Assembly: GCA_015065645.1 (NCBI GenBank)
Contig: SVPW01000014.1
Location: forward strand, 1 to 48,888
Source: Oscillospiraceae bacterium
GTDB taxonomy: Bacteria > Bacillota > Clostridia > Oscillospirales > Acutalibacteraceae
DNA length: 48,888 bases
Direction: 5' to 3'
Part shown: positions 545-48,477 of the stretch, piece after piece
Position numbering within the stretch: position 1 is the stretch's first letter
Layout of the letters: the number at the start of each line of letters is the position of its first letter
Program-made: the position numbers and the translations under genes
Notes under the pieces: generated by a model
The model's database searches: none
What the model was told of the DNA's origin: nothing
Seen by the model: the letters and a program-made list of their open reading frames with translations, nothing else

Positions 545-1453
545 TTAGAAGTTTCTGTTGTTATTGCTTTTTCTGAATTCTTTTGGTGTAACACCATATT
601 TTCTTTTGAAGAGTCGGTCAAAATAATATTGGTTTGGAAAGCCTATTTTATTTGAAATTTCTCCGATTGTATGGTTAGAGGAAATCAAATACTCGCAAGC
701 AGCGGTAAGCCTTAGATCATTTATATAATCAACGGTTCCTTTTCCTAAAAAATTGCGGAAAAGCTTTGTGATATATGATGTGGAAAAACCAAAGGTTTCG
801 GCAATTGAGGTGAGGGTTAATGGTTCGGTATAGTGATTATTGATATAATGCAAAATTTTCTGCAGGGTATTATTTGACGTTTGTTGTGTTGTAAGCTCGG
901 TTGAAATAAGTATCAGCAACTCACGGGTTATATTATCAAGTAGCAGTTTTTCATAGTGATTGCGCCAAATATTAAGCTTTGTTGCACGCTCAAAAACATT
1001 TTGTAAAGGATAGTATGATTTAAAGCTGTTCTGTTTAAAATGAATAGGAAGGCTGATAATTGAACTATAAGCTTTTCCGTAATAATTGTATGCATATCCG
1101 TTTTGATTATCTGCAATGCCCTGGAATCTGAGCAGAGATTGATCTATATTGGATGGTAGTGTGTTCTCAAGCGTGGTTGCAGAAAAATGTACAAAATAAT
1201 AGGAGCATCCATCCGACTCTCTGGGCTGATATTTTGTTTTCGAAGGGATAATAACTACATCTCCCTCGGAAACACTGTAAATATTGTCTCCGATTCGTAT
1301 ATTAAAGGCACCTCTTGTAACATATAAAAGCAGATTTGAAGAAATAGATTGTAGTTTCTGGTTTTGGTCTTTTTGATCGTGCCAAAAGCCCTTTGGCTGA
1401 GTTACTTTTCCAAACATTTTAACATTAACAGGTTTGTCAAGATCTAAAACCAT
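545..1453 (-). CDS. AraC-family transcriptional regulator
   Basis: This 302-residue protein has an N-terminal cupin-like sensing domain (about 30-120; 'GDNIYSVSEGDVVIIPS') and a C-terminal AraC double helix-turn-helix (about 200-298). The second HTH carries the family signature 'IGFPNQYYFDRLFKRKYGVTPKEFR'-like pattern (G-F-x3-YF-x2-FK-x2-GxTPxxFR). Such proteins usually bind a sugar and activate a neighbouring catabolic operon. It is divergent from the GH28 gene and the long polysaccharide locus, so it is the obvious candidate regulator. The ATG at 1453-1451 is preferred over an in-frame GTG at 1462, because that GTG lies inside the AGAGGTGA ribosome binding site. The ligand cannot be told from sequence. 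Confidence 0.9.
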   Translation of the reverse strand: MVLDLDKPVNVKMFGKVTQPKGFWHDQKDQNQKLQSISSNLLLYVTRGAFNIRIGDNIYSVSEGDVVIIPSKTKYQPRESDGCSYYFVHFSATTLENTLPSNIDQSLLRFQGIADNQNGYAYNYYGKAYSSIISLPIHFKQNSFKSYYPLQNVFERATKLNIWRNHYEKLLLDNITRELLILISTELTTQQTSNNTLQKILHYINNHYTEPLTLTSIAETFGFSTSYITKLFRNFLGKGTVDYINDLRLTAACEYLISSNHTIGEISNKIGFPNQYYFDRLFKRKYGVTPKEFRKSNNNRNF

Positions 1454-1473
1454 GTATATCACCTCTTGGTTGT

Positions 1474-1583: not shown

Positions 1584-1609
1584 TATGATAGTGAGTAGAG
1601 GTGTATTTT

Positions 1610-2848
1610 ATGGATTTTAATATTATTGATTACGGTGCCTCCGCTATAGAGGGAAAAAATAATACGGTTGCTATACAGTCCGCAATAGATGCTTGCGCTA
1701 ATGCCGGAGGCGGCAGGGTAATAATCAGAGACGGTGTATATATGTCCGGCACTATAATTCTTAAAAGTAATGTTAATTTGCATATTGAAGAAAGCGGAGT
1801 GCTATTAGGCTCACCGGATTGTGATGATTATCCTGAAATAAGTAATGTTAAACACTTCAAAAGTGAATTATTACCTCGTAATAGAAATTCTTGCTTTATC
1901 TTTGCAGAAGAAGAGATAAATATATCAATAACAGGTATGGGAAAAATTGATTGTAACGGTCTTGCTTTTGTAAAAGAGGTTGAGGATTATAAGGCGGGAT
2001 GGCGTTATAAAAGAATTGATGCACCAACCCCTCCACGTGTTGTTTTCTTTGCAGGCTGTAAAAATATAAATATAAAAGATATAACTATGGTAAATCAGCC
2101 GGCAGGCTGGAGCTATTGGATTCATGATTGCGATTATGTTACATGTGATCGGCTTAAAATAAATGCCGATGTGCAGTATCCGAATAATGATGGAATACAT
2201 ATTAACTCAAGTAGAAATGTAACGGTTTCTAATTGTTCAATTACTTGCGGTGATGATTGCATAGTTGTAAGAGCAAATAATGTTTCTCTTGCTGAAAATA
2301 AGGTTTGTGAAAAGGTTGTTGTTACAAACTGTAATTTAACAAGCTATGCTTGCGGGATAAGAATCGGTTGGCTTAATGATGGTGTGATTAAGAATTGCAC
2401 ATTTTCCAATATAGTGATGACCGATACAAATGTTGGAATAGGAATAAGATTACCTGGTCATGCGGTTGATGAAAAATGGGCAGATGAGGGAAGAGAGGCC
2501 ACATTAATTGAAAACCTGTCTTTCAGCAATATTATTATGGATGAAATATATTGCACACCTATAAATTGTGTTATAGACCCTTCATCTGTTGTAATGTGCA
2601 ATGCCATAAGGAAAATTCATTTTAACAATATTCATGCAAGCGGTTTAGAGTTTCCAAGACTTTACGGTAGGGCAAGTAACCGTATTTCTGATATTACATT
2701 TAATAATTGCAGCTTTACTAAGGTTGAGGAAAGCAAGCTAAAGGATTACAAGTTTCACGGTGCTTATTGGGGAAGACCGCAAAATAATAAAATATTTTCG
2801 TATGTTGAAAATATTGTTTTAAACGGCACTTCTTTCACTGCGCAATAA
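1610..2848 (+). CDS. GH28-family glycosidase (polygalacturonase-like)
   Basis: This 412-residue protein has the right-handed beta-helix pattern of GH28. It opens with a pectate-lyase-superfamily type start (FNIIDYGA, then 'NNTVAIQSAIDACANAGGG'). The catalytic motifs are NNDGIHI (Asp about 194) and GDDC (Asp 215-216). The family's usual Gly-His-Gly is not visible: the aligned stretch reads YACGIRIG. The RIK motif appears as GIRLPG, so the enzyme is either divergent or altered in specificity. There is no signal peptide, so it should act in the cytoplasm on imported oligogalacturonides or related sugars. The ATG at 1610 has AGAGG about 8 nt before it and is preferred over the GTG at 1601. It is the first gene divergent from the AraC regulator and may be co-regulated with the locus. 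Confidence 0.85.
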   Translation: MDFNIIDYGASAIEGKNNTVAIQSAIDACANAGGGRVIIRDGVYMSGTIILKSNVNLHIEESGVLLGSPDCDDYPEISNVKHFKSELLPRNRNSCFIFAEEEINISITGMGKIDCNGLAFVKEVEDYKAGWRYKRIDAPTPPRVVFFAGCKNINIKDITMVNQPAGWSYWIHDCDYVTCDRLKINADVQYPNNDGIHINSSRNVTVSNCSITCGDDCIVVRANNVSLAENKVCEKVVVTNCNLTSYACGIRIGWLNDGVIKNCTFSNIVMTDTNVGIGIRLPGHAVDEKWADEGREATLIENLSFSNIIMDEIYCTPINCVIDPSSVVMCNAIRKIHFNNIHASGLEFPRLYGRASNRISDITFNNCSFTKVEESKLKDYKFHGAYWGRPQNNKIFSYVENIVLNGTSFTAQ

Positions 2849-2909: not shown

Positions 2910-2934
2910 ACAAATTAGTTTTGAGGTGCACAAA

Positions 2935-5661
2935 ATGAAATTTGCAAAAACAATTTTATCCGTTTTTATAGCGATGATAATGATTTTATCGGCAGTAAAT
3001 GTTGTTGCTTTTACAGACAATGCTGATAACGGGTACAAAGCGGATGTTAATAAGATATTAAACACCGATGAGCGTATTGGGTGTGAAATTGAAGTTGAAG
3101 CAGATGGCGAATATGAATTACATATTACATTCAATACTGTAAGTGAATCAACACAGAGAATAGAATACGCCGTTAAGATTGACGGTGAATATCCTTTTGA
3201 CGGAGCCGAGCTTTTAGAAGCACCCGTGATATATGAAGATGACGGTGATGTAAGGAAATTATCTAACGGTGACCAAACAGCACCTCGTCAAAGGAAGGTA
3301 GAGGGTTATATAACCTCTGCAGCTTATGATAAAACAGGTGTAAGACTCACACCCTATACAGTAAATCTTACAGCAGGTGAGCATACCGTTGAAATCGAGA
3401 ATATAGGTGATGATTTTGAACTTGCTGCAATAGTATTTTCAAAACCTGAAACCGTTAAACCGTATAGCGAGGTTTCAAAGGAATATTCAAAATATGATAA
3501 GTATGAGGGAGATAAAATAATAATAGAAGCGGAAGATGTGCTTTACAGAAATGATTATTCTCTTACCGCTAAGTCTGATACAGGCAGTGCAGATATTACA
3601 CCTAAGAGTGCCACAAATTCAATTATTAATTATATAGGCGGCTCTAACTGGTCAAGTCCTTTTAAAGAGCTCACATGGCAAATAGATGTTCCCAAAACCG
3701 CACTGTATAAATTAGGCTTTAATTTTAAACAGAACTCTATAATAAACGGTAACGCATATCGCTGGCTTAAAATTGACGGCAAAACTCCGTTTAAGGAAGC
3801 TGCAAAGTTGGGATTTTCATATAAAACGGCTTGGCAGTATAAGGATATTGAAAATGCCGATGGAGAGGATTATTTATTCTATTTAACTGAGGGTAAACAC
3901 ACCCTTTCACTTGATGTAACCCTTGCGGGTATTGCAGATATTTACGATAAATTAAATGATATAACCGCAGATGTTGGTGAGCTTTATTTGGATATCGTAA
4001 TGATAACAGGTGAAACTCCCGATGCAAACAGAGATTATGAGCTCTATAAGCAAATACCTGATTTTGAAGAAAAGTTAAAGGTATTTTATAATGACCTTAC
4101 CAAAATTTCAAATGAGCTTAACAGTAAAAAGGATATAAACGGTGAGCTTGACGGTGCGGTAAAAAATGTTGCACGAATTTCAAAGCTTATGAGCGAAAAC
4201 CGTTATGAATCACACCTTTATTTAGATACATATTTTTCCTATTATCAAACCCTTTCATCATGGTTGTTTGATATAAAGAATATGGCACTTTCGCTTGATA
4301 AAATAATCATTTCCGCACCCGAAAGGGAAGTTGAGGATATTGAGGCAGGATTTTTTGAAAGCTTTGCTTTTGGTTTCAAGCGCTTTTTGCTTTCGTTTTT
4401 AGGAGATTATTCAAATGAATCTTTAAAGGGTGGAAGTAATAAGAATATAAAAATTTGGGTTAACTGGGGCAGAGATCAGGTTAAGGTTTTAAACACCTTG
4501 ATTCAAGAGGATTTTTCTCCCGGTTCAAAAATAAATGTAAAGGTTGAACAGGTTAATGCATCTGTAGTTCAGGGTATTATATCAAATAATTCTCCTGACC
4601 TTTATCTGCATATGGCAAGAACAGAGCCTATAAACCTTGCAATGCGTGGAGTTCTTCATGATTTATCTTCCTTTAGTGATTATGAAGAGGTTTTAAATAA
4701 CTTCCAAAAGGGTGCCGAAAAGCCTTATATATATAAAGGCAAGACCTATGCACTACCTGATGTTCAAGGCTTTAGTGTTATGTTTGTAAGAACCGATATA
4801 TTTAACGAATTGGGACTTGAAATTCCGCAAACCTGGGATGATTACCTTTCGGCAACATCGGTTATACAAAGAAAAAATATGAATACATATTTGCCGCATA
4901 TAAAAATAGTTTCTGCAACAACGGTTAATACCGGTGCAGGCGGATTGAGCATTTTCCCAACACTTCTAATGCAGAATGGCGAAAGTATGTATAACAGTGA
5001 GCTGAATGCAACTAATTTGGCATCGCCAATATCGGTAAAGGCATTTAAGTTCTGGACTGATTTCTATACAAGATATAAGTTAAATCCCGATGCTAATTTC
5101 TATCAAAGATTCAGAGTGGGTACCATACCGCTTGGTATTGCATCATATACCCAGTATTTAACCTTTGCGGTTGCAGCACCTGAAATTGAGGGTAAATGGG
5201 CAATTTATGAGCTGCCCGGAGTTAAAAGGGAGGATGGAACAATAGACCGTTCTTGTGCAGGCTCCGGAACAGGCTGTGCAATAATGAAATCAAGCAAGGA
5301 TAAGAAATCTGCTTGGGAATTCTTAAAGTGGTGGGTTTCCCCCGAAACACAGTATAACTATTCCTTTAATTGTGAGGCGGTTCTTGGACAGTCCGGCAGA
5401 ACGGCTACTGCTACTGTTGAGGCACTTAAAAAGCTTTCATGGGATAAGGAAAGCTTAGCTGTGATTTTAAAACAATGGCAAAATGTAAAAGAGATTGAAG
5501 AGGTTCCCGGAAGCTATTATGTATCTCGTTCAATCGACCAAGCTTTTTGGGCAGTTTATAACGGCGAAGCAACCGAAAAGGAAGCTATAACCGAATGGAG
5601 CAGAATTTCAAATAGTGAGATTGAGCGTAAGATATCAGAATATAAAGATAGGGTTTATTAA
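2935..5661 (+). CDS. Large sugar ABC transporter substrate-binding protein with N-terminal binding modules
   Basis: This protein of about 908 residues is roughly twice the usual length for a family 1 solute-binding protein. After a signal peptide (about 1-28, ending near VVAFTDN) come two beta-sandwich modules (about 40-165 and 195-345). The second starts 'IIIEAEDVLYRNDYSL', as in CBM6/CBM35-type modules. A helical region (about 355-500) follows, then a solute-binding domain (about 503-908, from 'KIWVNWGRDQVKVLN', with 'GKTYALPDVQGFSVMFVRTD' and a C-terminal 'AWEFLKWWVSPETQ'). I see no lipobox Cys, so anchoring is unclear. It starts the first importer set, 12 nt before its permease. The ATG at 2935 is chosen over the GTG at 2926, which lies in the Shine-Dalgarno. 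The ligand is unknown, likely an oligosaccharide. Confidence 0.85.
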   Translation: MKFAKTILSVFIAMIMILSAVNVVAFTDNADNGYKADVNKILNTDERIGCEIEVEADGEYELHITFNTVSESTQRIEYAVKIDGEYPFDGAELLEAPVIYEDDGDVRKLSNGDQTAPRQRKVEGYITSAAYDKTGVRLTPYTVNLTAGEHTVEIENIGDDFELAAIVFSKPETVKPYSEVSKEYSKYDKYEGDKIIIEAEDVLYRNDYSLTAKSDTGSADITPKSATNSIINYIGGSNWSSPFKELTWQIDVPKTALYKLGFNFKQNSIINGNAYRWLKIDGKTPFKEAAKLGFSYKTAWQYKDIENADGEDYLFYLTEGKHTLSLDVTLAGIADIYDKLNDITADVGELYLDIVMITGETPDANRDYELYKQIPDFEEKLKVFYNDLTKISNELNSKKDINGELDGAVKNVARISKLMSENRYESHLYLDTYFSYYQTLSSWLFDIKNMALSLDKIIISAPEREVEDIEAGFFESFAFGFKRFLLSFLGDYSNESLKGGSNKNIKIWVNWGRDQVKVLNTLIQEDFSPGSKINVKVEQVNASVVQGIISNNSPDLYLHMARTEPINLAMRGVLHDLSSFSDYEEVLNNFQKGAEKPYIYKGKTYALPDVQGFSVMFVRTDIFNELGLEIPQTWDDYLSATSVIQRKNMNTYLPHIKIVSATTVNTGAGGLSIFPTLLMQNGESMYNSELNATNLASPISVKAFKFWTDFYTRYKLNPDANFYQRFRVGTIPLGIASYTQYLTFAVAAPEIEGKWAIYELPGVKREDGTIDRSCAGSGTGCAIMKSSKDKKSAWEFLKWWVSPETQYNYSFNCEAVLGQSGRTATATVEALKKLSWDKESLAVILKQWQNVKEIEEVPGSYYVSRSIDQAFWAVYNGEATEKEAITEWSRISNSEIERKISEYKDRVY

Positions 5662-5673
5662 GGAGGAAGACAA

Positions 5674-6576
5674 ATGACTAAAAAAACAAAAAAGTCACTT
5701 TTTAGCAGTAGCCGTTGGCAACTGTATGTATTGCTTGCTCCTTTTTTAACATTTTTTACATTGATGATAGTGTTACCTGTACTTTCCTCAATGGTACTGA
5801 GCTTTTTTAATTTCGATATGGTATCTATGCCACGCTTTGCGGGTTTAGATAATTATATCCGTATGTTTTTACATGACGATATTTTTCCAATAGTTTTAAA
5901 GAATACGATTCTTTTGGCAATACTTACAGGCCCCACAGGTTTTTTACTTTCATTTGTGCTTGCGTGGTTTATTAATGAATTCGGCAGGGGACCAAGAACA
6001 TTATTCTCATTTATGTTCTATGCTCCTTCACTTGCAGGTCACGCTGTTTATATTTGGCAAATACTTTTTGCAAGTGATTCTTACGGATATATAAACAGCT
6101 TTTTGCTTTCTCTCGGACTCACTACCGATCCAATAGCTTGGCTTTCAAATGCAGATTATATAGTACCGATTGTTGTAGTGGTTCAGCTTTGGTCAAGCCT
6201 TGGTATTTCATTCCTTTCAAACCTCTCAGGTTTGCAAAATATCAATGCAGAGCTTTATGAAGCAGGTGCTATTGATGGTATAAGAAACCGTTGGCAAGAA
6301 TTATGGTATATAACATTACCCGGTATGAAGCATATGCTGTTGTTTAGTGCTGTTATGCAGATAGCTTCGGCATTCTCAATCAGCAATATAATAACTCAGC
6401 TTGCAGGTTATCCAACCGTAGGTCATGCGGCAGATACAATAGTATCGTATTTAGGTGATGTGGGTACTGTAAAATATGAAATGGGCTATGCGTCTGCATT
6501 ATCTGTTGTGCTGTTCTTCCTTATGGTTGGAACAAGATGGTTGACCAATAAATTGATTAATAAAACGGGAAGGTGA
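5674..6576 (+). CDS. Sugar ABC transporter permease (MalF/UgpA type), importer 1
   Basis: This is a 300-residue inner-membrane permease with six predicted helices. Its cytoplasmic EAA loop reads 'EAGAIDGIRNRWQELWYITLPG', which contacts the ATPase. It pairs with the next gene to form the membrane pore of a CUT1-type carbohydrate importer fed by the large binding protein upstream. The ATG follows AAGGAGG by 7 nt. No ATPase gene is in this cluster; the closest is the MsmX-type gene at 47335. Confidence 0.9.
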   Translation: MTKKTKKSLFSSSRWQLYVLLAPFLTFFTLMIVLPVLSSMVLSFFNFDMVSMPRFAGLDNYIRMFLHDDIFPIVLKNTILLAILTGPTGFLLSFVLAWFINEFGRGPRTLFSFMFYAPSLAGHAVYIWQILFASDSYGYINSFLLSLGLTTDPIAWLSNADYIVPIVVVVQLWSSLGISFLSNLSGLQNINAELYEAGAIDGIRNRWQELWYITLPGMKHMLLFSAVMQIASAFSISNIITQLAGYPTVGHAADTIVSYLGDVGTVKYEMGYASALSVVLFFLMVGTRWLTNKLINKTGR

Positions 6577-6581
6577 TAAAT

Positions 6582-7475
6582 ATGAAAAGTTTAAGAAAAA
6601 TATTACACCTTCCACGAGTAAATGAGGCAAAAAGATACACACGAAGCAAAGCAGGAAATTTCTTTTATTTCCTTTTCTTGTTTGCCGCAGGCTTTTTCTC
6701 ATTGCTTCCAATGATATACTGTGTAGTTACATCTTTTAAGCCTTTGGATGAATTGCTTGTCTTTCCGCCGACATTGTTTACGGTTAAAAGGCCTACAATA
6801 GCAAACTTCACAGCATTGCCAGACCTTATTTCAAGCCTTTCTGTGCCACTTTCAAGATATGTATTTAACAGTGTCTTTGTTGCGGTAGTGGGAACAGTGT
6901 TTTGTGTGCTTTTTGCTGCAATGGCTGCATTTGTACTTTCAAAAACTGATATAAAGTTCAAAGCACTTATTTTTACAATTATTCAGTTTGCGTTATTGTT
7001 TAATACATATACTTTGGCAATTCCGCAATACATAATATATTCCACATTAGGGGCAATAAACACATACTTTGTATACCTTTTGCCAACCTTGGCATCTTCT
7101 ATGGGAGTATTCCTTATGAAGCAGTATATGGATGGCTATGTACCTGATGCACTTATAGAAGCGGCTCATATAGACGGTGCAGATTGGTTTAGAATTTTCA
7201 GTAAAATAATATTGCCTATAATAAAACCCTGTATATTAACACTTACACTTTTCACATTTTTGGGACTTTGGAATGTTGGCTCTGCAGGAACGATATTCAG
7301 TGAACAGTTAAAAACATTACCTACAGTAATGGGAACTATAGCTACCGGCGGTCTTGCAAGAACAGGTAGCGCAATGGCAGTTTCGGTAATTATGATGATA
7401 CCGCCTATTGTAGTTTATTTAATATCTCAAGGAAGTATTAAAGAAACAATGGGTAGTGCAGGTATAAAGGGGTAG
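6582..7475 (+). CDS. Sugar ABC transporter permease (MalG/AraQ type), importer 1
   Basis: This 297-residue second pore subunit has a long N-terminal basic tail, six helices and the EAA loop 'EAAHIDGADWFRIFSKIILP'. The upstream permease gene ends at 6576. GGAAGGTG at 6568-6575 is the ribosome binding site for the ATG at 6582, so the in-frame GTG at 6573 is not the start. It forms a heterodimer with the preceding permease. Confidence 0.9.
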   Translation: MKSLRKILHLPRVNEAKRYTRSKAGNFFYFLFLFAAGFFSLLPMIYCVVTSFKPLDELLVFPPTLFTVKRPTIANFTALPDLISSLSVPLSRYVFNSVFVAVVGTVFCVLFAAMAAFVLSKTDIKFKALIFTIIQFALLFNTYTLAIPQYIIYSTLGAINTYFVYLLPTLASSMGVFLMKQYMDGYVPDALIEAAHIDGADWFRIFSKIILPIIKPCILTLTLFTFLGLWNVGSAGTIFSEQLKTLPTVMGTIATGGLARTGSAMAVSVIMMIPPIVVYLISQGSIKETMGSAGIKG

Positions 7476-7486
7476 GGGGAAAAGAA

Positions 7487-9619
7487 ATGAAAAAAATTCT
7501 TAAAACTTTTATCTCTGTAATTACTGTTTTGTCTCTTGGATTTACAATTTCCGTTTCTGCTGTACAACAAGAAACAGGCTCTACTCAAACAGGCGAAGTA
7601 CCGTATCAAAGTTATACCTATTGGGTTGATTATAATTCAAGTGAAAAAACACCGGTTTATTCTAAACCGATGTATGAAGTTAAAAATATAGTTTCGGCTG
7701 AATTGCTTGGCGCAGATGAAAACAGCCGATTAAACGATGTTACAACCGATGAGTATGGAAATGTATATATACTTGACAGTGGCAATTCAAAAATATTTGT
7801 TTTAGATTCAAACTATAATTTAATCTATACTTTGCAAGATATTATTTATAATGACAGCAAGCTTGTATTTACCGATGCTCAGGGCATTTTTGTTGATAAA
7901 AACGGTGTTATATATATAGCCGATACAGAAAACCAAAGGGTTGTATGTATGGATAAAAACGGAAATGTCAGCAGGCTTTTGTTGTTACCCGAATCTGAGC
8001 TTATCCCAACCGATTTTAAATACAGACCCGTTAAGGTTGCGGTTGATTCAAAGGGCTATACATATATTGCAAGTGATGGTAGCTATAACGGTGCTATTCT
8101 TTATTCTCCGCAGATGGAATTTTTGGGCTTTTTCGGTGCAAATACCGTTAAAGCTACGGCAAGCGATGTAATAAAGAAATTGTGGGATAGACTCACATCT
8201 AACGATATTAAGCGTGCGGCTGATGAAATTTCTCTTCCTTTTGCTTTTACCGATATTGTGGTAGGACCTGATGATTTTATATACACAACTACCGGTAAGG
8301 GCGGAAAATCAGTTATTCAAACCGGGCAAATTTGTGTGCTTAACCCAGGTGGTAAGGATGTACTTGGTGATGGGGATAAAAACTTTGCAGATAGTAAGGT
8401 TGGAACCTATTTATTCGCAACACTTTCACAAAGCCTTAATAACATTGATGTTGATAAAGATGGTTTTGTTTATGTGCTTGATACCACCTATGGCAGAATT
8501 TTCTGGTATGACAGCAAGAGTAATTTGTTTTCTGTGTTTGGCGGAAGTGCAGGTATTGGTGAACAAAAAGGTACATTTTCACTTCCTTCTGCAATAGCTG
8601 TTAATAACGGCGATGTTATGGTAACAGATGCAAAGAAGAACACACTTACAGTTTTTGGAATGACTAAATTCGGTAAAAATGTTTCGGATGCACAGAAAAT
8701 TACCTTATCGGGAGATTTTGCTTCATCTCTTGAAATTTGGGAATCGGTTATAACCGAGGATTCAAACTGTCAGTTGGCATATAGAGGTATTGCCAAGGCT
8801 TATTATGATTTGGGCGATAACATCAATGCAATGGAATATGCAAGGCTTGGTGTTGATCGTGAAACCTATGCAGATGCTTTTGAATTAAGGCGTACTGAGC
8901 TTATTGAGGAAAACTTCTATTTTGTTGTTTTGGTAATAGTGATTTTAATAGTAGCAGTTTCTTTGCTTGTTTATTTTAAGCGTAAAAAAGGAATTATTCT
9001 GATTAAAAACACTAAAATAAAGACCGTCCTTTCAAGTGTATCGCATCCTGTGGAGGCGTTTAGACTTGTGAAGGAAAAGGGCGAAGGTTCTTTAATTATT
9101 TCAACCGTATTATTAATACTTTTTTATGTGATTACGGTTTTGAATGATACTGCAGGTGGCTTTGCATTCACTATTTTTGATAGTGAAAATTATAATGCGG
9201 TATATGTATTTTTAAGCACGGTTGGTTTGGTTCTGCTTTGGTCATTATCAAACTGGCTTGTATGTACTTTGGCTGGCGGTATAGGAAAGCTCAGGGAAAT
9301 ATATATTGTTACATGCTATAGCTTGTTGCCGATGATTGCAGCTCGTTTATGCAATCTTGTACTAACGCATATACTTGTTCCCGATGAAGGGGCATTCTTG
9401 GGAATTATGCTTACAATATGTACTATTTATTCCTTATTTATGCTGATAATCGGAATTATGCGTATTCACGATTATGAGTTTGGAAAATTTATCGGTACAA
9501 CAATTTTCAGTGTTATCGGTATGTTAATAATTGTATTCCTGCTTTTCCTCGTATTTATGCTCATTCAGCAGGTTCTAACATGGGTGAGTACGGTATTTAT
9601 TGAAATCAGATATAGGTAA
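7487..9619 (+). CDS. NHL-repeat protein with TPR-like segment and C-terminal Yip1 membrane domain
   Basis: This protein has 710 residues. After a signal peptide (about 1-26) the outside part contains NHL/beta-propeller repeats (about 70-390), with blades such as 'DVTTDEYGNVYILDSGNSKI' and 'NIDVDKDGFVYVLDTTYGRI'. A short TPR-like helical pair follows (about 410-465, 'AYRGIAKAYYDLGDNINAME'), then a first membrane helix (about 478-498). The rest (about 515-700) is a multi-helix Yip1-like domain. It sits between two sugar-importer cassettes, 11 nt after one and 13 nt before the DUF5696 gene, so co-expression is clear. A role as a surface sensor or as a scaffold for the importers is inference; no enzyme motif is seen. 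Confidence 0.75.
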   Translation: MKKILKTFISVITVLSLGFTISVSAVQQETGSTQTGEVPYQSYTYWVDYNSSEKTPVYSKPMYEVKNIVSAELLGADENSRLNDVTTDEYGNVYILDSGNSKIFVLDSNYNLIYTLQDIIYNDSKLVFTDAQGIFVDKNGVIYIADTENQRVVCMDKNGNVSRLLLLPESELIPTDFKYRPVKVAVDSKGYTYIASDGSYNGAILYSPQMEFLGFFGANTVKATASDVIKKLWDRLTSNDIKRAADEISLPFAFTDIVVGPDDFIYTTTGKGGKSVIQTGQICVLNPGGKDVLGDGDKNFADSKVGTYLFATLSQSLNNIDVDKDGFVYVLDTTYGRIFWYDSKSNLFSVFGGSAGIGEQKGTFSLPSAIAVNNGDVMVTDAKKNTLTVFGMTKFGKNVSDAQKITLSGDFASSLEIWESVITEDSNCQLAYRGIAKAYYDLGDNINAMEYARLGVDRETYADAFELRRTELIEENFYFVVLVIVILIVAVSLLVYFKRKKGIILIKNTKIKTVLSSVSHPVEAFRLVKEKGEGSLIISTVLLILFYVITVLNDTAGGFAFTIFDSENYNAVYVFLSTVGLVLLWSLSNWLVCTLAGGIGKLREIYIVTCYSLLPMIAARLCNLVLTHILVPDEGAFLGIMLTICTIYSLFMLIIGIMRIHDYEFGKFIGTTIFSVIGMLIIVFLLFLVFMLIQQVLTWVSTVFIEIRYR

Positions 9620-9632
9620 AGGGGGATATATA

Positions 9633-11894
9633 ATGAAAAAAGTTTTAAGAACGCTTAGTATTCTTTTAAGCATTGTAATTATAGTATCCCTGTTTACCGG
9701 TTGTTCGGATAGCGGAAGCAAAAAGGCTTCTTTAGTAAAAACAAAGCCTTATAAGGAGCTAAAGCAGGGCAATGAGATACCGAGTGAAGGTGTTATAACC
9801 GAAAACGACCGTTTTTCAATGAGCTGGAATAGTTTTTATAGCCAGGTGGTTATCACAGATAAGAAAAACGGTGCAGTTTACAGCACAATGCCGATAGATG
9901 CAATGGAAATTAAGTACGATGCAGATGGCTATGAGATTATGAATAATATTCAGATAGAATCTCCGCTCATTGTTAATTATTACAACCCTGAAACCCTTTC
10001 GGAAGAAAAGCTGTATGCGGCATCAGATGCTATAAGAGATGGCAAGATTTTTTCTGAAAAAATTGAGAACGGTATTAAGATAACCTATGTTTTTTCATTG
10101 CAAAAAATTTCTGTGCCGGTTGAATATAGATTGAAGAGCGATAGCTTCCAAATATCGGTTAATCCAAAGGAAATTCACGATGACGGAGAATCCTTTGTAA
10201 CAGGTGTTGCAATAGCACCATTCTTATGTTCGCTCAGCAATAACAGCACTGACAGTTATTTTTTAATTCCTGATGGCAGCGGTGCTGTTATAAATCCACA
10301 AACGATTGACCATATCGGTCGTCAGGGTGGAAAAAGGGTTTACGGTGAGGATATTACCGTAAACGAATTTACACTAACCTCATTTGAGGAAAAAATGAAT
10401 ATGCCTGTCTTTGGTCAAAAGCGTGGTGATAACGGTGTATTGGCAATTATCACATCATCTGCCGAAAGGGCATATATAAATTGGGATATCGGCTCAAATG
10501 CTAAAAAGTATTCTTCTGTTTATCCCTTCTTTAAAATTAGAGGGTATAACATCATAAAGCGTCCTTCAGGATTTATGATGAGCCTTGCACAAATACCGAT
10601 TTTTGATGACTACATTGTTGAAGAACCGCTTACCGTCGAGTACCATACTTTAGGAAAAGAAAATGCTTCATACAGCGGTATGGCAAGTGTTTACAGAGAT
10701 TATCTTTTAAAGAGTAATAAACTCAAAAAGCAAGAAGAATCTGATGTTACGGGTGTTTTCAGATTACTTGGTGCTACTGAGCAAAAAACTTTTAATTTCG
10801 GAGTTCCGTCAACCAAGCTTGCAAAGCTTACCACTATTGAGGAAGCTGAGGAAATTTCCAAATATTTATCTGAAAATATTGAAGGTGAAATATTAATTGA
10901 ACTTTTGGGATTTGGCGAAAGCGGAATTGATGTTGGCAAAATAGGTGGCGGATTTACGATTGCTGATGAGCTTGGTGATGAAGATGATATAAGCAGTTTG
11001 GCAAGGTTTTGTAAAGATAACAAAATCAAACTGTTTATGAATTTTGATATTTTGGGCTTTGATGAAAGCGGAAATGGCTTTTCACCATCAGATGATTCGG
11101 CAAAATCGTATGACGGACAAACGGTATATCTTAACTTTTACAGTAACATAAGCCGTGTTACAGAGGGAAAAGAAAAATATGTACTGCTCTCAAGAGATAA
11201 GCTTGTTTCGGCTGCTGTAAAGTCCGGTGAAACCACAAATAAATACGGTTTTGATGGTGTTTCGTTAAGCTCGGCGGCACATGTTTCTTACTCTGATTAC
11301 AGCACAAAGGGCTGTGGTGTTTCCGGTCTTGTTTCGGATTATGTTACAAAGGCATATAAAACACTTGCAAAGAACACAGCGGTTATTTCAAATAAAGCCA
11401 ATGTATATTCCGCAGGTCTTTCAAGCTTTATAACCGATACACCGATAGTTTCATCACAATACGATATTGCTCTTTACGATGTGCCGTTTTATCAGATGGT
11501 ATTTAAGGGATATATACCGATGAGTGGTATGTCGGTTAATCTTATGGCGGATTATGATATCGCTGTTCTTAAATGTATTGAGGCAGGTATATCGCCAACC
11601 TTTACTTTATCAAATAATTATGATAACAGCTTAGCTCAAACTAAACATTCCGCTATTCCTGTTTCAAGATTTGACGGATTAAAGGAAAGAATAGTTCAAA
11701 CGGTTAAGGAAACTTCTATTGTTACACAAAAGGTTAAAGGTGCTGTTATAAAAAATCATACTGTGTCAGAAAATGGGCTTAGAATAAGCGAATTTGATAA
11801 CGGTGTTAAGATTGCAGTTAATTATACACAGCAGGATTTAACCATAGAGGAAAAATTAGTTCCTGCCGGTAAATACATTGTATTGGAGGGATAA
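9633..11894 (+). CDS. DUF5696-type lipoprotein
   Basis: This 753-residue predicted lipoprotein has a signal peptide ending in LFTGC, with Cys about 24 as the lipid site. The body reads like the DUF5696 family found beside sugar importers in Firmicutes. Fold impression: an N-terminal beta-supersandwich (about 55-370), a TIM-barrel-like middle (about 395-690, with 'GEILIELLGFGESG' and 'KYGFDGVSLSSAAHVSY'), and a C-terminal beta-sandwich ('NGVKIAVNYTQQ...PAGKYIVLEG'). This order resembles large glycosidases, but I cannot assign catalytic acids. It is expressed between the Yip1/NHL gene and the second permease pair. The TTG at 9600 is rejected; the ATG at 9633 follows GGGGGA by 6 nt. The activity is unknown. 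Confidence 0.75.
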   Translation: MKKVLRTLSILLSIVIIVSLFTGCSDSGSKKASLVKTKPYKELKQGNEIPSEGVITENDRFSMSWNSFYSQVVITDKKNGAVYSTMPIDAMEIKYDADGYEIMNNIQIESPLIVNYYNPETLSEEKLYAASDAIRDGKIFSEKIENGIKITYVFSLQKISVPVEYRLKSDSFQISVNPKEIHDDGESFVTGVAIAPFLCSLSNNSTDSYFLIPDGSGAVINPQTIDHIGRQGGKRVYGEDITVNEFTLTSFEEKMNMPVFGQKRGDNGVLAIITSSAERAYINWDIGSNAKKYSSVYPFFKIRGYNIIKRPSGFMMSLAQIPIFDDYIVEEPLTVEYHTLGKENASYSGMASVYRDYLLKSNKLKKQEESDVTGVFRLLGATEQKTFNFGVPSTKLAKLTTIEEAEEISKYLSENIEGEILIELLGFGESGIDVGKIGGGFTIADELGDEDDISSLARFCKDNKIKLFMNFDILGFDESGNGFSPSDDSAKSYDGQTVYLNFYSNISRVTEGKEKYVLLSRDKLVSAAVKSGETTNKYGFDGVSLSSAAHVSYSDYSTKGCGVSGLVSDYVTKAYKTLAKNTAVISNKANVYSAGLSSFITDTPIVSSQYDIALYDVPFYQMVFKGYIPMSGMSVNLMADYDIAVLKCIEAGISPTFTLSNNYDNSLAQTKHSAIPVSRFDGLKERIVQTVKETSIVTQKVKGAVIKNHTVSENGLRISEFDNGVKIAVNYTQQDLTIEEKLVPAGKYIVLEG

Positions 11895-11896
11895 AT

Positions 11897-12805
11897 ATGA
11901 GTTCTAAAAGAAAACACAACAGTATTAAAGAGCTCAAAGCACGTTACGGGCTAATGTTTATTTCTCCATGGATTATCGGAATGATTTTGTTTTTTATTTA
12001 CCCGATTTTTCATTCCATTTGGTTGAGCTTTTCTAATTTATCACTTGGGGCGGATGGAATTATAACTGAGTTTGTTAAGGGCTCAAATTACTATAAAATT
12101 CTTGTTACTGATCCTAAGTATCTTAACAATGTTTTAGATACAATCAAAGGAATGTTGATTTCGGTTCCTTTTATACTTGTTGTAAGTATGGTTTTAGCAC
12201 TGCTTTTGAATGGTGAATATAAAGGCAGAATATTTTTCAGAGGATTATATTTTATGCCGGTTATTATTGCCACCGGTGTGGTATTGCAGTTGTTTTTGAA
12301 AGCTGCTTCCACCAATGCCACTGAGGCTGCAGTATCTGATGCTGCAGGGTTTGATATGATTGACTTTAATGCCGTTTTAAGTGGTTTGAATTTACCTGAA
12401 TCCATAGAAACATATCTATCATCTGTTTTAAGTGATATATTTATGCTTGTTTGGCAAAGCGGTATTCAAACGGTACTTATAATTGCGGGTCTTCAATCTA
12501 TTCCTGAGCTTCATTATGAGGTTGCTCGTGTAGAGGGTGCAAATTCATGGGAAACTTTCTGGTTTGTAACCTTCCCACAGCTTATCAGAACTATGATTTT
12601 GGTAATTATATTTACCATTATCGAATACTGCTCACTAAATACAAATACCATAATATCAACTGCTTATGCTAAGTTTAATGACCTTGAATATGGTGTTGGC
12701 TCAGCAATGCTTTGGTTCTATTATATGTTTGTTGCAGTTATTATGCTGGTAATATTCTTCCTCTATAATAAGTTTTTTGCTAAGAAATGGGGTGAGAGCG
12801 CATGA
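11897..12805 (+). CDS. Sugar ABC transporter permease (MalF type), importer 2
   Basis: This 302-residue inner-membrane permease carries an EAA loop 'EVARVEGANSWETFWFVTFP'. A longer extracellular insertion (about 135-165, rich in Ala/Asp) separates the second and third segments and is unlike its importer 1 counterpart, which suggests a different binding-protein contact. Its start lies 2 nt after the DUF5696 stop, with the ribosome binding site GGAGGG inside that gene, so the two are translationally coupled. Confidence 0.9.
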   Translation: MSSKRKHNSIKELKARYGLMFISPWIIGMILFFIYPIFHSIWLSFSNLSLGADGIITEFVKGSNYYKILVTDPKYLNNVLDTIKGMLISVPFILVVSMVLALLLNGEYKGRIFFRGLYFMPVIIATGVVLQLFLKAASTNATEAAVSDAAGFDMIDFNAVLSGLNLPESIETYLSSVLSDIFMLVWQSGIQTVLIIAGLQSIPELHYEVARVEGANSWETFWFVTFPQLIRTMILVIIFTIIEYCSLNTNTIISTAYAKFNDLEYGVGSAMLWFYYMFVAVIMLVIFFLYNKFFAKKWGESA

Positions 12806-13755
12806 TGAACTCACCCACAAAATTAAAGAAAAAATCTGTATCAATATTAGTATCTGCCTTCAGGTATTTAATGCTTACAATAATCGGATATATAGTTTTA
12901 TACCCGTTGCTTTATATGATAAGCGGCTCTCTTAAAGAAATGAAGGCGCTTTTGGATGTAAGATACATTTGGATTCCAAGATATATTTCGTTTGATACTT
13001 TTAAAACAGCGTTTGATTATCTTGATTTTATACCATCACTTACAAAAACTCTCTCTTTGCAAATAGTATCTGCTTTAATTGAGATTTTTGTATGCTCGTT
13101 TATAGCATACGGATTTGCAAGATTTGATTTTAAAATCAAAAAAATTGCAACAGCATTTTTAATGTTATCATTGATGGTACCGCTTCCAATGTATAGTCTT
13201 TCACTTTCGGTTAACTTTCGTGAACTTGATTTTCTTGGCATATTAGGGTTGCTTGATAAGTTTACCGGTATTGATTTAAGACTTAATCTTTTTGATACAA
13301 ACTGGGTATATTGGTTGCCGTCTATTTTCGGTGTTGGAATACGTGCAGGTATACTGATTTACATATATATTCAGTTTTTTAAGGGCTTACCGGGAGAACT
13401 TGAAGATGCCGCTTATGTTGACGGTGCAGGCCCGATACGAACATTTTTACAAATAGCTTTGCCGTCATCAAGCGTGGTAATAGTTACGGTTTCGGTATTG
13501 TCTATTGTATGGCATTGGAATGAAAGCTATTTGGCTTCACTTTGTTTCACCAATGAAACAAAACCCCTTTCTGTTATGCTATCCCTTATCGAAATACCGC
13601 TTCACCAGGATGGCTTATGGCTTGGCACACAGCCTATAGCAAATACTATAGTATTTGCTTCGTGTATAGCGTTTATCATTATACCTCTTATACTCTATTT
13701 AATATTACAAAGAAAATTTGTAAAGAGCATTGACCGTGTTGGTATTACCGGTTAA
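12802..13755 (+). CDS. Sugar ABC transporter permease (MalG type), importer 2
   Basis: This 317-residue permease overlaps the previous gene by 4 nt at an ATGATG, where coupled reinitiation is likely. It has six helices and the EAA loop 'EDAAYVDGAGPIRTFLQIALP', and ends 'LILYLILQRKFVKSIDRVGITG', a typical CUT1 permease tail. It should pair with the 11897 permease and the 13791 lipoprotein. Confidence 0.9.
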   Translation: MMNSPTKLKKKSVSILVSAFRYLMLTIIGYIVLYPLLYMISGSLKEMKALLDVRYIWIPRYISFDTFKTAFDYLDFIPSLTKTLSLQIVSALIEIFVCSFIAYGFARFDFKIKKIATAFLMLSLMVPLPMYSLSLSVNFRELDFLGILGLLDKFTGIDLRLNLFDTNWVYWLPSIFGVGIRAGILIYIYIQFFKGLPGELEDAAYVDGAGPIRTFLQIALPSSSVVIVTVSVLSIVWHWNESYLASLCFTNETKPLSVMLSLIEIPLHQDGLWLGTQPIANTIVFASCIAFIIIPLILYLILQRKFVKSIDRVGITG

Positions 13756-15244: not shown

Positions 15245-15277
15245 AAAACAAAATAATTATAAGGAGGAATGGGCGGA

Positions 15278-20210: not shown

Positions 20211-22637
20211 ATGAAAAGAATAATTGCTGTTTTACTTGCGGTAATAATGACGGTTTTAATTTTTTGCTCCTGTTCAGGCAGTAAAAAGAAAAACGAACAA
20301 TATGTAATTGCCCTTAATCCTTCCGTAATGTTTGAGGATGGTAAGGTTAATAGTCTACGCAATACAGTGGCTTCAGCTATACAAAAGGATGTAAACAAAA
20401 ACAAGACTTCACTTTATGAGAGTTCAAATTGGAAGTGGGTTTCTCGTGAAAATGATGAAGAGAATAAATGGTATATCAGGCAGATAACAGACCTTTCTAC
20501 ATGGTCAAACTCTTCTGATGATACAGTATCTTCTGCTCCGTATTCCTATCAATTTGGTAATAACAGTGCAAATTCGCTTGGCGTTTATGATGTTGGAAAA
20601 ATGAAAATTAATTCTCCAAAGGGCGCAAAACTTAACAAAAACGGAGTTATTTTTTCCTTCACTGGTACCGGCGAAGAAGGACTTTGTTACATAGCAGATA
20701 AAGATTGTTTTATAGAGTTTGCTGACCGTAATGACGGCACTGTTTCTATTGTTGAAAATATTGCGGGAATGAATGCTTCTTACTTAAAGAATGATTCTGC
20801 AAAAAAGTATATTCTGTTAAGAATTTATAAAAACAATCGTATATATTGGCAGGAGGTATTAGCTGCTGATTCACTTTCGGTTGAATTTCCGAATTTTACA
20901 AATCTTGAGCTTAAAGCAGGAGATTCTGTAATGATCACCGCTAAAGCTGTAAAGTCGGTTAAGGGAATTGTAAGAGGTAACTGTGATATTGAACAAAAGT
21001 TTGAAACTATCACTTTAGAGCATCCTATTACCGAAAAAGTTCAGATTGAACTTGAAGAAGGCAATCCTAACGAAATCCCGATAGTTAAGGATAGTATGAG
21101 TAATTTCAAATTCGTATATCCTAAAAATGCAGATGAAAACACTAAAATATATCTTAATAATCTCATAAAGTATATGGAAAATAATCTCGCTATTTATCCT
21201 GAGTCTATAAGCGATGATGAAGCAGAGCTTTATGATGATGAAAACTATATACTTATTGGTGAAACAAAGTTTGAGCAGTCTAAAAAAGCTATAGCCGAAA
21301 TCAAAAAAGCAAGAAATGCTAATGCAGGCGATTTTATTATCAGACAGCAGGATAATACAGTAGTTATTGCCGCACTTAACAGCTATTCAATTAACTATGC
21401 AATAGAATTTTTTAAGCAAAATTATTGCAATGATAAAAAGGCTGTTATAAGAAAAGGGCTTAACTATGTTTCAAGTAAGTTTAATGCTATAAAAAGCATT
21501 AAACTCAGCGGTTCGTCTATAACTGATTATACTATTGTGCTTTCTCAATACAGTTCGTTTATGGAAACCGCTGCTGCAGATTATCTTGTTGATAATATCG
21601 TAAATCTTACAGGTATTATTCTTCCGATTAAAAATGATAAATCGGCAGTGACTAATAATGAAATTTTAATCGGTAATACAAACCGCACATCTGCTAATTA
21701 CAGCGTTTTAGCCGATAATCAAACAGGTGAAGAGTTTGAAATTAAGGTTGAAAACGGAAAATGTTCGGTGCTTAGCAGAAGTAATTCCGCAGTTAATGCA
21801 GGTGTTATTCAGCTTGTTGAAAAGCTTAAAGGCGGAAATGTTGCCAATGGAAGTTATAAGGGAGCTTATGACGGCACATATTCTTTAACAAACGGTTATA
21901 AGCTTTCTTGGTCTGAGGATTTTTATGGTGATAAGCTGAGCAAAACCTGGACTAAGAAGGGTGCCGGAGGTTACGAAACTACCCGTGGTGGTACAACCTA
22001 CTCCGATATGGCAAATGCTTCTGTTAAGGATGGTGCCTATATTGCAAAATCGCAGGTTATAGGTAATGATAGCTACGGTGTGGATATCACAGCCGCAGGT
22101 TCTAAACCTATGTACTTTAAATACGGTTTTGTTGAGGGCAGAATTAAGATGTCTGAAATTATAGGTTATCTATCAGGTCTTTGGGTTGTTACCTATACCG
22201 GTGGTGGAACAGGTACAGGTGAATTCGATATTTACGAAAATGCAGGTAAAACCAATGAGTTTAAGCCCAATCTTCATATCTGGGGTACCGAACATAAGGA
22301 GCTTTTACAGAACGAAGCCAACAGAAGAGAAGGAACAGCACCAAAGGTTGTTATTGATGAAAGATTTGGTGATAATTATCATCATTTCGGTATGGAGTGG
22401 ACCAATGATTTTATAGCCTTCTATATTGACGGTGTACGCTATTATACGTTTGATTGTACTGCTTCGGATTCATACGATGTATTTGATCAGTATGCAACGG
22501 TGGTTTACGGTGCTTTCTGTGATCGTGGCTATACAAATCTTCCTGTTCCTGAGGAACATAAAACATCCTATAACTATGTTGACTGGATCAGAATATGGCA
22601 AAAAGATGAAGATGGCTATGGAATTAAAATTAAGTAA
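20211..22637 (+). CDS. GH16-family endo-beta-glycanase lipoprotein
   Basis: This 808-residue predicted lipoprotein has a signal peptide with lipobox IFCSC. Residues about 30-270 are an unrecognised beta-rich region. About 280-555 hold two alpha/beta domains resembling the domain found before the barrel in GH20/GH67-type enzymes ('YILIGETKFEQS' and 'EILIGNTNRTSA'). About 560-808 are GH16, with 'KLSWSEDFYG' and the catalytic GEFDIYEN (Glu671, Asp673, Glu676). The enzyme should retain the anomeric configuration and cut internal beta-1,3/1,4-type bonds outside the cell; the exact glycan is not clear. It shares the three-domain tail with the protein at 25085. The ATG follows GGAGGGGGG by 8 nt. Confidence 0.88.
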   Translation: MKRIIAVLLAVIMTVLIFCSCSGSKKKNEQYVIALNPSVMFEDGKVNSLRNTVASAIQKDVNKNKTSLYESSNWKWVSRENDEENKWYIRQITDLSTWSNSSDDTVSSAPYSYQFGNNSANSLGVYDVGKMKINSPKGAKLNKNGVIFSFTGTGEEGLCYIADKDCFIEFADRNDGTVSIVENIAGMNASYLKNDSAKKYILLRIYKNNRIYWQEVLAADSLSVEFPNFTNLELKAGDSVMITAKAVKSVKGIVRGNCDIEQKFETITLEHPITEKVQIELEEGNPNEIPIVKDSMSNFKFVYPKNADENTKIYLNNLIKYMENNLAIYPESISDDEAELYDDENYILIGETKFEQSKKAIAEIKKARNANAGDFIIRQQDNTVVIAALNSYSINYAIEFFKQNYCNDKKAVIRKGLNYVSSKFNAIKSIKLSGSSITDYTIVLSQYSSFMETAAADYLVDNIVNLTGIILPIKNDKSAVTNNEILIGNTNRTSANYSVLADNQTGEEFEIKVENGKCSVLSRSNSAVNAGVIQLVEKLKGGNVANGSYKGAYDGTYSLTNGYKLSWSEDFYGDKLSKTWTKKGAGGYETTRGGTTYSDMANASVKDGAYIAKSQVIGNDSYGVDITAAGSKPMYFKYGFVEGRIKMSEIIGYLSGLWVVTYTGGGTGTGEFDIYENAGKTNEFKPNLHIWGTEHKELLQNEANRREGTAPKVVIDERFGDNYHHFGMEWTNDFIAFYIDGVRYYTFDCTASDSYDVFDQYATVVYGAFCDRGYTNLPVPEEHKTSYNYVDWIRIWQKDEDGYGIKIK

Positions 22638-22675
22638 TTAATATTTTTTGTAGCTTAGATTAATAGTTAAAGAAC

Positions 22676-22708
22676 GGTGATGTGCAGCATCTAAAGCCGC
22701 ACATCACC
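22676..22708 (+). other. Intercistronic stem-loop before GH3
   Basis: A perfect 10-bp stem (22676-22685 with 22699-22708, GGTGATGTGC and its complement) has a 13-nt loop and no T tract after it. It lies in the gap where the GH3 gene has no clear Shine-Dalgarno sequence. It may partly insulate the GH16 message or affect GH3 translation. Confidence 0.65.
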
Positions 22709-22729
22709 AAAGATAACAATTTTAAAATT

Positions 22730-25011: not shown

Positions 25012-25084
25012 ATAATTATATTTTTCTACATGGCAAAATTTTAAAAGATATGTATTATGCATATCAGAAAGAAAGGTGCAAAAA

Positions 25085-47292: not shown

Positions 47293-47334
47293 ATATGGGA
47301 AATGTGATTGTTTCAATTTAGGAGGTTTCATAGT

Positions 47335-48477
47335 ATGGCAAGCTTATCACTTCGCAATGTTTACAAAAGATATCCGGGCGGCGTAACAGCTGTTTCTGAT
47401 TTCAATCTTGAAATCGCGGATAAGGAATTTATCATTCTTGTTGGACCTTCCGGTTGCGGTAAGTCCACAACACTAAGAATGGTTGCCGGTTTGGAAGAAA
47501 TTTCTGATGGTGAAATTTACATCGGCGATCGTCTCGTTAACGATGTTGCTCCTAAGGATCGTGACATCGCAATGGTTTTCCAGAACTACGCACTTTATCC
47601 TCATATGACCGTGTTTGATAATATGGCGTTCGGTCTTAAATTGAGAAAGACTCCAAAGGACGAAATCAAGCGTCGTGTTGAAGAGGCTGCTCGCATCCTC
47701 GATATTTCTCACTTGCTTGAGCGTAAGCCTAAGGCTTTGTCCGGTGGTCAGCGTCAGCGTGTTGCTCTCGGTCGTGCAATCGTTCGTGAGCCTAAGGTAT
47801 TCCTTCTTGACGAGCCGCTTTCTAACTTGGATGCTAAGCTTCGTGCACAGATGCGTACTGAGATTTCTAAGCTTCATCAGCGTTTGGGTACAACCTTTAT
47901 TTACGTTACTCATGACCAGACTGAGGCTATGACAATGGGTACTCGTATCGTTGTTATGAAGAGTGGTCTTGTTCAGCAGGTTGATACACCTAACAATTTG
48001 TATCTCTATCCTTGCAATCTTTTTGTTGCCGGATTTATTGGTTCTCCTCAGATGAACTTTATCGATGCAAAGCTTCTTAAGGTTGGAGAAGATTTCGTTG
48101 TTGAGTTTGGTTCTGAAGATACCAAGACCCGTGCAGGCGTTAAGTATCAGATTAAATTACCCGCAAGCAAGAACGCTGATGGCGCTCTTAATGACTATGT
48201 TGGTAAGGAACTCATTATGGGTATTCGTCCGGAGAATGTTCATAACGAAGCTGATCTTATTGCCGCTAACCCCGACGGTATTGTTGAGGCAGACGTTGAA
48301 GTAACTGAGCTTATGGGTGCTGAGACCTATCTTTACATGAACTGTGAAGGTCAGGCAATCAACGCACGTGTTGCTCCTACCAATACTGCACGTCCCGGTG
48401 ACAAGATTACAATTGCATTTGAGACAGCTAAGATTCATCTTTTCGATAAGGATACTGAGCTTACCATTTGCAATTAA
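47335..48477 (+). CDS. Multi-sugar ABC transporter ATPase (MsmX/MsmK/UgpC type)
   Basis: This 380-residue ATPase has Walker [10 protein letters not shown] (residues 37-45), the signature [14 protein letters not shown], Walker B '[16 protein letters not shown]' and the switch His in YVTHDQ. The C-terminal TOBE-type regulatory domain runs from about 240. In Gram-positives such enzymes serve many sugar importers that lack their own ATPase. It is the only ATPase gene in the window, so it could drive both importers at 2935-15206. Codons are more biased here (many CGT, AAG, CTT), pointing to high expression. AGGAGG is 9 nt before the ATG at 47335. Confidence 0.94.

Follow-up and report, generated by a model that had tools for sequence, protein, structure and literature searches.

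NHL-Yip1 and DUF5696 proteins as probable accessory components of a CUT1 importer subclass in gut Clostridia and Paenibacillus

Introduction

The usual picture of a CUT1 importer is that of a permease pair together with a binding protein and an ATPase. In the pectin operons of B. subtilis, small DUF624 membrane proteins of unknown role (YesL, YteU) lie beside a CUT1 importer. SusCD-type uptake in Bacteroidota couples surface glycan capture to import, and eukaryotic Yip1 proteins act in membrane traffic. The locus analyzed here belongs to an Oscillospiraceae bacterium (contig SVPW01000014.1), and the whole stretch of 48,888 nucleotides is referred to as the window. It possesses two CUT1 permease pairs with two further genes between them, which probably encode a membrane scaffold and a glycosidase without catalytic residues as extra parts of a glycan-uptake machine. 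What sets the locus apart is a subclass of CUT1 importers to which two nearly constant genes are added; no description of it was found. Among the 5.39 million papers covered none names DUF5696, and no relevant publication turned up that links YIP1 or NHL to transporter terms. The main texts of PMC4765114 and PMC12827396 do not mention Yip1, and that of PMC4765114 does not mention NHL either.

Gene organization of the locus

The features of the window are as follows.

545..1462, minus strand: AraC-type regulator, divergent
1601..2848, plus strand: GH28-family enzyme, at the head of the probable operon
2926..5661, plus strand: SBP1, solute-binding protein of 911 aa
5674..6576, plus strand: perm1A, MalF-like CUT1 permease with EAA loop EAGAIDGIRNRW
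6573..7475, plus strand: perm1B, MalG-like CUT1 permease
7487..9619, plus strand: gene A (710 aa), NHL propeller - TPR - TM - Yip1 membrane protein, assigned by Pfam, AF2, Foldseek and hydropathy scan
9633..11894, plus strand: gene B (753 aa), DUF5696 lipoprotein, predicted pseudoglycosidase of GH129 fold
11897..12805, plus strand: perm2A, MalF-like CUT1 permease of a distinct clade, with EAA-loop variant EVARVEGANSWE
12802..13755, plus strand: perm2B, MalG-like CUT1 permease with EAA loop
13791..15206, plus strand: SBP2, solute-binding lipoprotein (SBP_bac_8)
20211..24970, plus strand: first entry of the GH16/GH3 set
25076-30850: second GH16
30986-32584: GH13
32600-35320: GH3
35346-37781: GH31
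47308..48477, plus strand: MalK/MsmX-type ATPase (OB_MalK match)

The original prediction placed genes A and B between two importer cassettes with gaps of 2-13 nt. The gaps found are 11 nt from perm1B to gene A (7475 to 7487), 13 nt from gene A to gene B (9619 to 9633) and 2 nt from gene B to perm2A (11894 to 11897). The best start of gene B is the ATG at 9633, while a 764-aa ORF starting from the TTG at 9600 runs into gene A. A scan for promoter-like sites found 59 where 55.9 were expected, and one for terminator-like sites 10 where 8.6 were expected; these numbers are uninformative. All four permeases show BPD_transp_1 matches, those of perm1A and perm2A being slightly below the cut-off when taken alone, and in NCBIfam it is the UgpA/UgpE-type sugar permeases that match best. 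The EAA loop is kept in all four, as observed in 75-84 copies of each. The GH16/GH3 set suggests beta-glucan as the glycan of the window cassette. A protein of 1641 aa with three List_Bact repeats and a CBM4/9 match is encoded after the cassette (15269-20194), and large ORFs are frequent at this position.

Cassettes of the source genome

In the source genome each of the nine full-length DUF5696 genes is immediately preceded by a Yip1 match, and no further Yip1 match was found there. The association is far beyond chance, and the predicted importer-associated unit is strongly supported. Around each of the other eight cassettes 19-20 kb was examined, and SBP1, perm1A, perm1B, NHL-Yip1, DUF5696, perm2A and perm2B were found in all nine, which together hold 36 of the 44 BPD-permease matches of the genome. 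The cassettes of the window and of L054 are followed by an SBP2-like gene, that of L051 weakly so. L053 has separate NHL and Yip1 genes, and its perm2 pair is situated upstream of SBP1. A 2235-aa ORF separates perm2A from perm2B in L057 (1004-7711). Similarly, L132 has a 2008-aa ORF between the two permease genes, and L144 a 1611-aa ORF after perm2A.

The neighbouring enzymes vary from cassette to cassette (GH16/GH3, GH31, GH38, GH42, GH2), which makes the scaffold look general; the choice of glycan probably lies with the binding proteins and enzymes. It is solely the neighbouring GH genes that point to oligosaccharides as the transported substrate. The ATPase at 47308-48477, encoded outside the cassette, was the sole OB_MalK match detected in the genome and is presumably the shared energiser of all nine cassettes; the genome is 85.7% complete, so a second MalK-type ATPase may be missing from it.

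Conservation in other genomes

The set of named genomes comprised the best 80 of 314 relatives, mostly MAGs of gut Clostridia and Paenibacillus; it therefore leans to close relatives and was supplemented by phylum samples. From it 79 loci were usable (L160 was dropped, its DUF5696 being cut), which together with the nine own loci gave 88. NHL-Yip1 is directly upstream of DUF5696 in all 87 loci with upstream sequence, the 88th being cut by the contig end. Directly downstream, perm2A was found in 84 of 86 loci with downstream sequence, two more being cut. The two without it are L053 and L130, which possesses a 459-aa perm2B-scored ORF at this place. The order SBP1-1A-1B-NHLYIP-DUF5696-2A-2B was observed in 57/88 loci, and an SBP2-like gene within six genes in 41/88. 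Among the matches listed, DUF5696 exceeds the cut-off in 73 of 99 related genomes, including the own genome, and in 26 of 299 genomes of the phylum-wide sample. The series NHLYIP-DUF5696-perm2A is kept in 30/30 loci from related genomes (one of them own), and NHLYIP-DUF5696-perm2A-perm2B in 24/24 newly fetched phylum-level loci.

SBP1 and perm1 are less constant. Within the flanks examined (1.6-5.1 kb upstream), 12 of 30 wide loci keep NHLYIP and DUF5696 without SBP1/perm1, with perm2 kept where the contig reaches. These loci, one of ten in L173-L182 and 11 of 20 in the second wide set, represent two bacterial families. One genus (L180, L203) has the order NHLYIP-DUF5696-perm2A-perm2B-SBP1-perm1A-perm1B.

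A count of co-occurrence was named in the original prediction as the check, with families mostly found apart as the outcome that would speak against it. Pairing by Pfam only in 15 genomes gave the opposite picture. With thresholds of at least 100 bits for DUF5696 and at least 28.6 bits for Yip1, weaker matches being left out, 93 of 103 DUF5696 matches are preceded by Yip1 at no more than 5.5 kb, and DUF5696 follows 92 of 99 Yip1 matches. Among the ten unpaired DUF5696 matches, seven are contig-end cuts or cases where the gene is present: L169 contains an NHL-Yip1 gene missed by the Pfam Yip1 search, in L170 and L172 the contig ends just upstream of DUF5696, and G179:C81:478, G138:C3:19, G179:C46:12 and G179:C36:4 lie near a contig start. 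One more is a short match (G179:C108) and another a solitary paralogue (G000:C43:39385). The true exception is L171 (G179:C250), where DUF5696 and perm2A are present and an unrelated 263-aa ORF occupies the place expected for NHL-Yip1. Around the unpaired Yip1 matches L183, L184 and L185 no cassette members were seen. The other four are in G031:C33 and in C151, C71 and C244 of G179; in C151 and C71 the contig starts within 0.9 kb of the Yip1, in the direction in which DUF5696 is expected.

DUF5696 lipoprotein

Gene B matches Pfam DUF5696 with E=2.2e-126. It has the lipobox LFTGC, and its Cys24 is invariant in 32/32 aligned relatives. The predicted structure follows the GH129 fold along the whole length, with three domains including a TIM barrel, in line with the surface lipoprotein of glycosidase-like layout originally proposed. 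According to PMC5698469, the catalytic nucleophile of the GH129 enzyme NagBb is Asp435. In the window protein this position corresponds to Ser546/Ser547 and that of the acid/base Glu to Asn587, the columns being assigned by sequence alignment and not by superposition of side chains. An earlier assignment of NagBb D330, which aligns with window D433, as nucleophile was dropped in favour of Asp435, as given in the same paper. Residues were counted in 126 distinct cassette copies (145 rows minus 19 duplicates). Asp at 546/547 together with Glu at 586-588 was found in none of them; the loss is not uniform, Asp being kept in 39 and Glu in 19. The PDGSGA and VYGxD loops are conserved. The missing Asp-Glu pair disfavours processing of the glycan by DUF5696. 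Of the suggested roles to sense, tether or process, processing hence loses ground, which leaves tethering or docking as the preferred one.

A solitary DUF5696/DUF6259 protein of 569 aa is encoded on the minus strand of G000:C43 (L058:8370-10079), with a GH101 match below the cut-off. It carries both predicted catalytic acids and, judged by its sequence, is likely an active uncharacterised glycosidase, an enzymatic cousin of the cassette pseudoenzyme. Sub-cut-off DUF5696 matches were rejected as other enzymes, namely DUF6259 in L084 and GH13 in the C16 match (L059). In a custom scan L086 and L087 matched only the GH13 of the window. The proteins L084:580-2568 and L085:901-2892 are related to each other (662-663 aa) and weakly to DUF5696, with YID and IMEG as candidate catalytic motifs; no relative of L084 with a solved structure was found by sequence. 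The profile PF11308 (Glyco_hydro_129) gave no match in 199 phylum genomes, and the control genomes gave none either, which leaves this absence without weight.

After the residue check, an active GH129 was not the first choice for DUF5696 and is retained as a rival. DUF5696 would then be an exo-glycosidase at the surface whose catalytic residues are altered or relocated and which trims the glycan before uptake, NHL-Yip1 being a mere anchor. Besides the whole-length fold, the Asp555 (YSDY motif) shared by 118/126 cassette copies fits such an enzyme, as do the 15 copies with Asp or Glu at both sites and the three of 77 database relatives, of unknown genomic context, which have both catalytic residues (P0187, P0233, P0234). 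PMC5698469 also describes ZGAL_3152 as active though just one of the two NagBb catalytic residues is conserved. However, Asp555 is present in the stand-alone paralogue too and so is not a cassette-specific replacement. That paralogue has the pair which every cassette copy lacks, 52 of the 126 copies have no acid at either site, and DUF5696 adjoins enzymes for different glycans. An active enzyme is therefore considered unlikely.

NHL-Yip1 protein and the binding proteins

The predicted make-up of gene A, a propeller joined to a TPR-like part and a Yip1 domain, was confirmed. In Pfam it matches NHL (E=1.6e-15, 56.7 bits, cut-off 20) and Yip1 (PF04893; E=1.8e-14, 54.4 bits, cut-off 28.6), which places its helical membrane domain among the bacterial Yip1-domain proteins. 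The AF2 model (pLDDT 81.3) is composed of propeller strands at about 42-392, TPR-like helices at 394-475, a TM helix at 477-501 and Yip1 helices at 536-709. The top Foldseek matches are NHL propellers, with TMt of about 0.75-0.80 against solved single-domain entries, and profile comparison matched residues 411-459 with consensus TPR proteins. By prediction the propeller and TPR arm lie outside the cytoplasm, anchored by six TM helices. Separate adjacent NHL and Yip1 genes were found in Paenibacillus, namely P. montaniterrae J40TS1 (L159) and P. humicus NBRC 102415 (L166), and in L153, L157, L163 and L053. In the five split loci whose ORFs were examined, a TM helix with a basic tail forms the C-terminus of the NHL protein, and about 30-55 residues of the Yip1 protein stand ahead of its first TM helix. 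Proteins that are fused in the window and are two membrane proteins elsewhere classically point to physical partners.

SBP1 contains an SBP domain at 525-809, and its N-terminal half has a CBM35-like match below the cut-off. It has a signal peptide and no cysteine in the N-terminal region for a lipid anchor. A lipobox was recognised in 5/74 SBP1, 34/43 SBP2 and 62/88 DUF5696 proteins by a rough motif pattern applied to guessed starts, which missed 26 of the 88 DUF5696. Since SBP1 is mostly without a recognisable lipobox, it may need a surface partner. In partial distance correlations over 63 cassettes, NHL-SBP1 gave 0.41 and DUF5696-SBP1 0.33, followed by DUF5696-perm2B, Yip1-perm2A and Yip1-SBP1 (0.23 each) and DUF5696-perm2A (0.20). 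The expected pairs gave 0.50 (perm1A-perm1B) and 0.27 (perm2A-perm2B). The values hint at a chain SBP1 - propeller/DUF5696 - perm2; domains of one polypeptide score 0.01-0.10, so this measure does not read physical contact.

Instead of being a subunit of the transporter, NHL-Yip1 might serve the importer, or the exported enzymes of the locus, as assembly factor or membrane chaperone. The membrane-traffic role of eukaryotic Yip1 proteins, the separability of NHL from Yip1 in some genomes and the cassette-like locus L171 without NHL-Yip1 are consistent with this. Against it, each cassette has its own diverged copy, and nine copies would be superfluous for a general chaperone. The distances also track extracellular partners, SBP1 above all, which argues weakly in the same direction. 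We regard such a factor as rather improbable.

A glycan sensor signalling the substrate to the cell or the permease was part of the original prediction, and nothing was found that supports this role in particular. A propeller predicted outside with a membrane domain inside would suit a sensor, and an AraC-type gene, the sole regulator type profiled, is near some cassettes. That gene occurs in part of the loci only, however, and no cytoplasmic signalling domain was seen in gene A, just short loops and Yip1 helices. NHL-Yip1 and DUF5696 are quite improbable as a sensor.

Association with the perm2A clade

In perm2A the EAA loop has Glu for the usual Asp before Gly in 82/84 copies and Trp in 81/84, a variant usable as clade marker. 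A perm2A profile applied to eight genomes, with 150 of 228 candidates scored in G164 and 150 of 198 in G120, gave 26 genes of at least 286 bits, all others listed reaching at most 163. Among the matches listed, these 26 share cassettes with the full-length DUF5696 genes of those genomes, also 26 in number. In 25 of 26 the two genes directly adjoin, the remaining one having the L053 arrangement. This full co-occurrence means that the NHL-Yip1/DUF5696 pair belongs above all to the perm2A clade. Genes of glycan loci generally travel together, but an ordinary operon neighbourhood linked by nothing beyond shared regulation is very improbable, as the enzymes change while the core order is constant across several families of the phylum and named Paenibacillus, and DUF5696 accompanies one permease clade in 26/26 cases.

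Proposed model

NHL-Yip1 and DUF5696 are, on balance, rather to be seen as near-obligate accessory subunits of an undescribed CUT1 importer subclass. The pair originally proposed as a two-gene unit is real, but that unit is too narrow, since the core also holds the downstream perm2A/perm2B pair. The core would consist of the NHL-TPR-Yip1 protein, the DUF5696 lipoprotein, perm2A and perm2B, with an SBP2-like protein as a common member, and perm1A/1B with the giant SBP1 would form a common yet optional second permease pair. By predicted topology, the Yip1 helices would lie in the membrane, where they may contact the permeases, chiefly perm2A, and would hold the propeller and TPR arm outside the cell. 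The lipid-anchored DUF5696, whose fold and residue loss are computed, may bind glycan or dock SBP1 without cutting. Propeller and DUF5696 could together keep SBP1, in which no anchor is visible, and its glycan at the surface and pass oligosaccharides to the permeases. SBP1/perm1 are absent from 12/30 wide loci, so docking of SBP1 cannot be the only role of these two. One shared MalK-type ATPase, the sole one detected, would power the cassettes. Each copy may serve a different glycan according to its neighbouring enzymes, the kind of scaffold being constant.

A bolder and more doubtful extension is a supercomplex of Bacillota-type bacteria with a role like that of SusCD. Here the NHL-TPR-Yip1 scaffold would yoke two CUT1 translocators and two binding proteins, the pseudoglycosidase would have given up catalysis and turned into the surface glycan receptor, and the whole would have been copied and retuned many times in a genome for different polysaccharides, with one shared ATPase driving it.

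Comparison with known systems

The subclass is of interest in that the perm2A clade, among the genes listed, never occurs without DUF5696 in the eight genomes checked, and nearly always has NHL-Yip1 too. If confirmed, accessory subunits of this kind would complete a list of the components for polysaccharide uptake in Paenibacillus and uncultured gut Clostridia. Two families still without a name, DUF5696 and NHL-Yip1, would gain a role, and a glycosidase would have become a transport subunit. The model is directly testable in cultured Paenibacillus.

DUF5696 shares its fold with the GH129 enzyme NagBb, an alpha-N-acetylgalactosaminidase (5WZN/5WZR), and with the 3,6-anhydro-D-galactosidase ZGAL_3152 (5OPQ). 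Unlike these, it is a lipoprotein without the Asp-Glu pair and with PDGSGA and VYGxD loops. Gene A differs from other bacterial Yip1 proteins in that its Yip1 domain is fused to, or in the split form encoded beside, a secreted NHL propeller with a TPR arm. YesL and YteU belong to another domain family and have neither propeller nor pseudoglycosidase. With SusCD the cassette would share surface capture and import, if the model holds; here the importer is a Bacillota-type ABC importer, and homology is not claimed. With the CUT1/MalEFGK type it shares the two EAA-loop permeases per pair, the solute-binding proteins and the MsmX/MalK-type ATPase outside the cassette. Unlike that type, the cassettes add two genes in nearly every copy and usually contain two permease pairs and two binding proteins, one of them giant.
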